From Methanobacteriota archaeon (lineage in GTDB: Archaea; Thermoplasmatota; Thermoplasmata; UBA10834), in contig CP070736.1 in the NCBI GenBank assembly GCA_020347645.1, positions 453,184-507,284 on the forward strand: a stretch of DNA of 54,101 nt, written 5' to 3'. The translations under genes were made by a program, and so were the position numbers. Below are positions 51,567 to 52,117 of the stretch, piece by piece. The notes beneath the pieces are model-generated. The model made no database searches. It worked only from the letters and a program-made list of their open reading frames with translations, and was not told the DNA's origin. Within the stretch, counting starts at the first letter, position 1; the number at the start of each line of letters is the position of its first letter.

Positions 51567-51587
51567 CGGTTTTATAATGCTACCGGG

Positions 51588-51596
51588 CTATAAAAA
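51588..51596 (-). promoter_or_regulatory. TATA box of the DUF72 gene
   Basis: On the minus strand TTTTTATAG is centred 26 bases before the ATG, the expected distance for a leaderless archaeal transcript. Confidence 0.55.
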
Positions 51597-51645
51597 CGAT
51601 TGCAGCGCAGTGATTCAGAAAACGCTATATCCGACCATATGCCTT

Positions 51646-51654
51646 GATATATTC
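51646..51654 (+). promoter_or_regulatory. TATA box of the candidate structured RNA
   Basis: GATATATTC is centred near 51650 and predicts transcription from about 51675, exactly where the closing helix of the downstream RNA structure begins. Confidence 0.45.
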
Positions 51655-51671
51655 AACCTATCCCTCGCGCC

Positions 51672-51865
51672 CATACGGCGTTGTGGGGTAGGCAGTCGTG
51701 CGCCGCATGGGCCCCCCTGCGAATCCCGGTGTGCCATCGAGACGTGTACAGGGAACAAGTCGGTGCACAACACCAACCCCCAGGAGGGTCAGGGCGGCGA
51801 GACTGCGCTCGCAAGCAATGAACCGCACTGTTACGCCTGGGGGACAATCTCTATGGGCCGTAACC
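51672..51865 (+). ncRNA. Candidate structured non-coding RNA with a three-way junction
   Basis: This GC-rich stretch has no convincing reading frame but folds by simple pairing. TACGGC (51674-51679) pairs with GCCGTA (51857-51862). GTTGTG (51680-51685) pairs with CACAAC (51766-51771). CCCCCAGG (51777-51784) pairs with CCTGGGGG (51836-51843). Nested stems include CCCTG/CAGGG in the first arm and GCGG/CCGC in the second. ACA follows the second arm directly, as in H/ACA guide RNAs, with 17 bases between the upper stem and ACA. I could not match it to SRP RNA or RNase P RNA signatures. Boundaries are set by the helix and the TATA box. Confidence 0.5.
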
Positions 51866-51956
51866 TTCGCTGCGATCGCATTGGATAACTCAATTGACAC
51901 GAAGCAGTCTATTGAAGAATTCTTGCATTACAGCCTGCCTGGGCAGAAGCGAGACC

Positions 51957-52041
51957 ATGGTCGGGTGAGGAAATACGTGCTGTGTTTTTCAAGGAGCGTT
52001 AGCCGATGCGATATGCATTACGATGACTGCATCCCGACCAT
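51957..52041. repeat. Nine-base inverted repeat in the region before the M28 peptidase gene
   Basis: ATGGTCGGG (51957-51965) and CCCGACCAT (52033-52041) are perfectly complementary and enclose 67 bases with a small inner hairpin ATGC-GATAT-GCAT. No gene is supported between the candidate RNA and the peptidase start. It could be a further RNA element or a DNA-binding dyad. Confidence 0.35.
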
Positions 52042-52088
52042 CTGAGGCTCGCGCGCGGACCTTAGGCTGACAGAAGATGGCTATGCAT

Positions 52089-52097
52089 ACAAATATC
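52089..52097 (+). promoter_or_regulatory. TATA box of the M28 peptidase gene
   Basis: ACAAATATC is centred about 25 bases before ATG 52118. With no ribosome binding site before that ATG, a leaderless transcript is expected. Confidence 0.5.
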
Positions 52098-52117
52098 GTC
52101 AAGGGAATCACCCCCCA

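Follow-up and report, generated by a model that had tools for sequence, protein, structure and literature searches.

HgcG (Pab40, Pf7 or Afu-4; RF00064) is a three-hairpin archaeal H/ACA guide RNA, and the Haloferax RNA HP1/HP2 (Hvo1 and Hvo2) has two such hairpins with a long spacer between them (PMC2584109). The Pf7/Pab40/Afu-4 RNA and the Haloferax HP2 hairpin have been assigned to the equivalent of Escherichia coli 23S rRNA uridine 1915 (PMC2584109), as have the motifs Pa40.3, Af4.3 and Hvo2 (PMC4652768, PMC2584109), and the second Haloferax hairpin is assigned both L1956 and L1958, corresponding to 1915 and 1917 (PMC4652768); haloarchaeal 1956 is equivalent to E. coli 1915. The first Haloferax hairpin targets L2621, equivalent to U2586 (PMC2584109). 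Pab160 (RF02796) has the single-hairpin H/ACA shape.

We analysed a window, a stretch of 54,101 nt of DNA from a Thermoplasmata archaeon, in which a structured RNA had been predicted from the sequence at positions 51672–51865. We consider it highly probable (roughly 0.93) that this region encodes an H/ACA guide RNA that is a divergent homologue of HgcG, has its own promoter, and carries in its third hairpin a guide for U1915 that is probably its only or main one. The whole RNA is placed at 51652–51846 on the forward strand, with an approximate 5′ end, on the basis of DNA homologues, their alignment and a covariance match at 51691–51846. The original prediction of a structured RNA that has an H/ACA guide hairpin for its second arm was right as far as the sequence tells, and the RNA is recognizable as one of an already known kind, a Thermoplasmata homologue of the three-hairpin guide with lineage-specific decay.

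Relation to HgcG and distribution in the Thermoplasmata

No Rfam family scores above its gathering cut-off anywhere in the window, and RF00064 has no match at E≤10 to the window copy in a search of 561 bases at the locus. Among weak matches there, the best is to Pab160 (20.6 bits, E-value 0.77, positions 51777–51846); hairpin III fits its shape, but the 47.4-bit cut-off is not reached and the guide strands differ, so that the likeness is one of form only. In the Rfam comparison that had been proposed, four loci of relatives were also covered and score 21.8–42.1 bits against RF00064. Two sister-genus loci align along the whole 276-position model of RF00064 (L009: 42.1 bits, E-value 6×10−9; L007: 37.8 bits, E-value 1.2×10−7), L014 aligns over positions 58–271 (28.9 bits), and L003, from the window's own genus, scores 21.8 bits (E-value 0.01). 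The label 'unassigned' in the original prediction can therefore be replaced: the region is identifiable as a conserved non-coding RNA and a divergent homologue of HgcG. The window copy is tied to the sister-genus matches by DNA that is 86–91 % identical to it within the genus, and by a covariance match with an E-value of 8.6×10−22. The features shared with HgcG are three hairpins in a row, collinear with the model in sister genera and other families, kink-turns, ACA boxes, and a hairpin III that fits uridine 1915 of helix 69 by complementarity; unlike HgcG, the window copy has a first hairpin without pocket or ACA and a score under the gathering cut-off. Since only two of its hairpins keep the H/ACA form, we speak of a divergent homologue and not of a full member of the family.

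Within the class, RF00064 matches 54 of 150 genomes (each at least 70 % complete) at E≤0.05, and at this threshold none of the seven genomes of the window's genus. Just one of the 150 passes the gathering score of 77 bits, which is a curation threshold and not a biological feature, and none of 14 named control genomes matches, so this search is not a sensitive one. A model of our own, R1, was built from hairpins II and III of 25 sequences (alignment A3), none of them from the window's family, leaving out the lower stem of hairpin II, which was misaligned between families. R1 has a single match in the window, the one at 51691–51846 already mentioned (90.2 bits; its E-values are rough), and finds the RNA in 230 of 300 Thermoplasmata genomes and 70 of 91 genera. 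This is thus a conserved RNA gene, assigned to a known family, that the Rfam cut-off mostly misses. The genomes with no R1 match include ten of family f18, 96–99 % complete, in which the RNA is apparently lost or too divergent (G042, G051, G059, G067, G081, G087, G093, G099, G110 and G114), and 50 others. At the DNA level, 21 of 60 genomes searched contain the region: that of the window, 18 further members of the same family, and two from a different family whose matches span little beyond hairpin III. A pattern scan of named genomes returned 21 contigs, all titled as Thermoplasmata, Thermoplasmatota or Euryarchaeota archaea (one as 'uncultured euryarchaeote'). A title-level search of the literature found no title about H/ACA guide RNAs in Thermoplasmata; one review mentions Thermoplasma acidophilum twice (PMC3608112).

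Hairpin III and helix 69 of 23S rRNA

Hairpin III occupies 51777–51846. Like hairpin II it has an internal pocket enclosed by a lower stem (51777–51784/51836–51843) and an upper stem (51790–51797/51823–51830, with one R.R mismatch), and its ACA box lies directly 3′ at 51844–51846, so that the second-arm H/ACA hairpin ending in ACA, including its 8 bp helix, stands as first described. The kink-turn at 51799–51821 contains the tandem sheared pairs G51799.A51821 and A51800.G51820; across 83 aligned RNAs the G.A pair is present in 80 and the A.G pair in 82, and an ANA box follows in 80 (ACA in 74, ATA in 4, AAA in 2). This set, whose alignment was fitted to the model, omits duplicate copies of the same RNAs as well as L019, L120, L187 (identical in its RNA to L186) and L204, whose copy has an insert some 50 bases long; L019, which is cut at a contig end, is also absent from alignment A2, and L120 from both A2 and A3.

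The guide strands originally placed at 51785–51793 and 51827–51835 were in nearly the right place, and the limits supported here are 51782–51791 and 51830–51834. The 5′ guide, AGGAGGGUCA, pairs with UGACCCUCUU (23S positions 1917–1926) and the 3′ guide, GUUAC, with GUAAC (1910–1914), the complete site being GUAAC-UA-UGACCCUCUU, in which the predicted target uridine is 1915 by alignment to E. coli rrlB. There is no rRNA match in the genome's own assembly, which is 65 % complete, and targets were therefore read in relatives. This site ranks first in all eight 23S loci of the family, at −26.3 kcal/mol, with the runner-up at −20.87 or weaker (energies are an in-house stacking sum, and the 23S scan included rRNA flanks). 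On the rRNA of G005, a genome of the same genus, no shuffled guides did as well in two trials (0/300 and 0/150), a strict-pocket version gave 1 in 150, and the class-consensus guides gave 2 in 300. The rRNA target called for by the original prediction would, by complementarity, be U1915, and hairpin III probably guides its modification.

The geometry of the hairpin bears on the details of this pairing. The published H/ACA rule places the kink-turn 10 layers from the pocket and the ANA box 14–15 nt after it (PMC4652768); a hand count on the window gives 10 layers (51791–51800/51820–51829) and 14 nt (51830–51843). Applying the 10-layer rule yields a 10/5/9 fold with three unpaired target bases instead of two, and for a two-base spacer one pair next to the pocket would have to open. 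Three unpaired target bases are an anomaly, yet a third has been proposed in one fold for Haloferax Hvo2 (Hvo2a) at the same site (PMC4652768). Two other registers were considered. The first, AGGGUCAGG/ACUGUUACG over a short upper stem, has its best 23S site at UGACGG[UA]UCUGAA in four loci, with a flanking site in one of the four, and the second involved U1939 and helix 69; both were dropped when the longer guides gave U1915 with 15 pairs.

The same genome encodes Cbf5 (378.8 bits) and a protein of the eL8/L7Ae family (152.8 bits). By analogy with the known family, we infer that transcription, RNP assembly and modification take place at this locus: the RNA would be transcribed from its own promoter, L7Ae would bind the kink-turns and Cbf5 the ACA boxes, and the pocket of hairpin III would pair with helix 69 and set U1915 in the active site of Cbf5, which would convert it to pseudouridine.

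Hairpins II and I and a possible turnover of rRNA targets

Hairpin II lies at 51698–51772, with a lower stem at 51698–51704/51762–51768, an upper stem at 51715–51719/51749–51753 seen in the fold and in the pairing of relatives, and an ACA box at 51770–51772. Both stems are well kept in 17 relatives (115 of 119 cells paired in the lower and 85 of 85 in the upper). Its kink-turn (51721–51747) consists of A51722.G51746 and G51721.U51747; the A.G pair is found in all 83 RNAs, whereas the other is G.A in 60 and G.U in 18, and the G.U is also seen in the 18 family rows of another alignment. In the class as a whole AUGGGU and CAACCCC are the guide strands, and they fit the A-loop as GGGGUUG-UUC-GCCCAUU at −27.8 kcal/mol, and no shuffle in 300 did as well when consensus guides were set on the rRNA of G027 and G048. 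This is a difference from HgcG, since hairpin II carries A-loop guides of this type in most of the tabulated RNAs of the class, and the RF00064 consensus carries AACCC, which fits U2586, without them.

The most likely target of hairpin II in the class is U2554. Its neighbour U2555 is possible as a target; the guide base opposite U2554 varies, however (A 37, C 3 and U 3 times, n=43), and family f14 keeps hairpin II with A at 2555 (three genomes with the RNA read, and four more rRNAs), and for these reasons U2554 is preferred. Yeast presumably has a pseudouridine at the equivalent position. Guide and rRNA match at position 2551, where the third base of the guide is A in all 47 genomes with U2551 and G in all four with C2551 (f14 and f26), an agreement in 51 of 51 genomes with both bases read; for the other 32 of the 83 tabulated RNAs no rRNA was read for the comparison of 2551 and 2586. 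A fifth RNA with the guide G comes from G213 of family f31, whose own rRNA gave no A-loop match, and four of six f31 genomes searched have an A-loop match, each with C2551. The families with C2551 may share one ancestral change.

In the window the 5′ guide AUGGGC (51707–51712) is complementary to 23S 2557–2562 (GCCCAU), and the 3′ guide, AACCC in 52 of the 83 RNAs, is reduced to ACAA (51755–51758) followed by G. With the 3′ strand reading ACAAGU, only three or four pairs are left beside the target, and shuffling gave guides as good in 61 of 150 and in 67 of 300 trials; sister-genus guides (of the G010/G016 type, on G012 rRNA) keep four pairs and beat 150 of 150 shuffles. The 3′ guide appears degraded, and the hairpin looks worn out and decaying. 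The hairpin II guides have an A-loop site in seven of the eight family 23S loci (none in L067, from G008). An alternative, which we regard as unlikely, is that hairpins II and III both work, so that in this genus, as elsewhere, U2554 (or U2555) is served by hairpin II, the six Watson–Crick pairs of AUGGGC offsetting the short 3′ guide. The A-loop is indeed still the best rRNA site for the window's hairpin II guides (−15.3 and −17.5 kcal/mol), the lower stem is paired in 35 of 35 cells in five relatives of the genus and the upper stem in 85 of 85 cells in 17 family relatives, and one more pair than in the window suffices for the sister-genus guides to outdo their shuffles. Against this stand the few pairs left beside the target, the frequency with which shuffles equal the window guides, the G.U pair in the kink-turn, and an energy of −2.6 to −4.8 kcal/mol on our own simple stacking sum, where −6.0 kcal/mol for the 5′ duplex is described as discriminant on the RNAsnoop scale (PMC4652768). 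We therefore return to hairpin III as probably the sole or main working guide, since the 3′ guide of hairpin II is degraded and the first hairpin, as follows, has neither pocket nor ACA.

At the place of hairpin I the window has a 5′ hairpin (51657–51692) with the stem CCTATCCC/GGGGTAGG and small internal loops only; its fold has no pocket and no ACA follows it. All 12 sequences from two sister genera have an ACA after hairpin I, compared with none of six from the window's genus, and hairpin I is, to judge from these features, lost as a guide in the window RNA. We restrict the claim of a lost pocket to the window copy, because in L003, of the same genus, a larger internal loop still seems possible by eye. 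In many other families the hairpin I strands CGAAG and GCAAG can pair with 23S GCUUGC-UA-CUUCG, which contains U2496, and two versions of these guides were equalled by 2 and 0 of 300 shuffles, with guides and rRNA taken from different genomes and the position read from an alignment block. U2510 was the best site for sister-genus hairpin I, yet 50 of 300 shuffles were as good and we make no claim for it. When the small loops within the 5′ hairpin of the window were tried as guides, 121 of 300 shuffles equalled them.

These comparisons lead us to a tentative proposal, for which we would put the odds a little below even: that the targets of HgcG in Thermoplasmata turn over with the rRNA, hairpin II being directed at U2554 and not at the haloarchaeal U2586 and being tracked by the compensatory exchange of U for C at 2551 with A for G in the guide, hairpin I being directed at the peptidyl transferase centre uridine U2496, and both being on the way to loss in the window's genus, so that its RNA is becoming a one-target relic that retains the other two hairpins. 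The predicted 23S pseudouridine sites for the class are 1915, 2554 and 2496, and guide–target co-evolution can be tested directly where individual hairpins are lost and the rRNA sites have changed as well. Within the window's family, all nine tabulated genomes for which rRNA was read have C at position 2586. The idea that AACCC was lost because U2586 became C is only suggestive, there being few independent events and AACCC pairing with the A-loop as well: among 21 tabulated genomes with C2586 it is absent from 16 and present in 5, and among 30 with U2586 it is present in 26 and absent from 4, all of family f6 (G025, G037 and G104, outside the table of 83 RNAs, have U2586 with AACCC).

That the RNA is structured for another job (processing, chaperone or antisense), and resembles an H/ACA RNA by appearance only, would accommodate a 5′ hairpin that is no guide in the window copy, but it is very improbable, given that the stems are less conserved than the pockets, ACA boxes, kink-turns and guide strands, and that guide and rRNA agree at 2551 in all 51 genomes with both read.

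Several other features of the 23S genes were noted. In f1, f2, f14, f18, f26 and parts of f9, f10, f23 and f29, U is replaced by C at position 2586, which corresponds to the haloarchaeal pseudouridine site L2621. The A-loop of f14 (L042, L207 and L208) reads GGGGCUGUACGCCC; the site is very conserved, and the changes are U2551C and U2555A. The residues equivalent to A2503/U2504 of E. coli (peptidyl transferase) vary naturally: the window's genus, among others, has CU, two genera of its family have CC, f14 has UU, and AC occurs in f9 and some other groups (loci L042, L044, L045, L048–L050, L054–L056, L058–L062, L065, L068 and others). The 23S gene is about 250–285 bases longer in L056, L059, L061 and L065, about 700 in L053 and L054, and has small inserts in L052, L057 and L064; these insertions are perhaps archaeal rRNA introns.

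Conservation of the fold, promoter and gene neighbourhood

The folding energy of the region is unremarkable (z −0.48), and its 8 helices of at least 6 bp, the longest being 8 bp, compare with a mean of 5.5 (SD 2.0) in shuffles, 35 of 100 of which contain a helix of at least 8 bp; both values lie within the range of shuffled sequence, and the case for a real RNA is made by conservation and covariation. The structure is paired in 87.3 % of cells, whereas shuffles reach 70.2 % and slid structures no more than 45.6 %, 144 cells are altered on both sides (48.2 in shuffles), and the covariation measure is 0.492 (0.180 in shuffles). A weaker measure, the number of pairs with change on both sides, is 20 against 17.4, a value of 20 being reached by 23 of 500 shuffles, and RNAalifold, unaided, on 43 sequences gives 19 pairs, of which 15 have compensatory change. 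The compensatory changes that the original prediction hoped to see in relatives are thus present. Chance folding in G+C-rich intergenic DNA, or membership of a coding sequence, such as the 103-aa frame that runs across the gene, would agree with the energy and helix count, but we regard it as already refuted by the covariation, and conservation that stops at the ACA and class-wide occurrence count against it too.

Three helices of 6, 6 and 8 pairs had been proposed to form a three-way junction. The 8 bp helix, the lower stem of hairpin III, pairs without exception in the 17 relatives (136 of 136 cells). The two 6 bp helices, identified by assumption among the 8 helices of at least 6 bp, fare poorly: 51674–51679/51857–51862 is paired in 42 of 102 cells in the same relatives and 13 of 30 in five of the genus, and 51680–51685/51766–51771, which takes bases from the stem and ACA of hairpin II, in 63 of 102 and 8 of 30. 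The three-way junction was therefore rejected on conservation.

Upstream of the RNA lies a TATA-like element with an A-rich BRE before it, GAAAACGCTATAT, at 51618–51630 on the forward strand, which bears out the TATA box first reported; all 18 family loci that extend upstream of the RNA have an AAA-n-TATA(A/T) counterpart (the window and 17 others, L019 being cut off at a contig end). From the usual archaeal promoter spacing, transcription would start at about 51652. The alignment is conserved across the promoter and the three hairpins and stops at the ACA at 51846, so that the 3′ boundary of 51865 was wrong. A DUF72 gene adjoins the RNA at 17 of the 18 loci L001–L018, and also in family f9, and an M28 peptidase gene lies on its other side at 17 of the 19 loci L001–L019, some of which are cut by locus ends. 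The window has only 271 bases between the RNA and the M28 gene (51847–52117), with no HExxH frame among the listed open reading frames, whereas in L002 a 239-aa frame with the motif VVYHEMLHGV (HExxH) lies between the two on the reverse strand (L002:1675–2394). We note also that the RNA gene is overlapped by two frames, of 103 and 115 aa (window 51577–52045), which could mislead gene callers.
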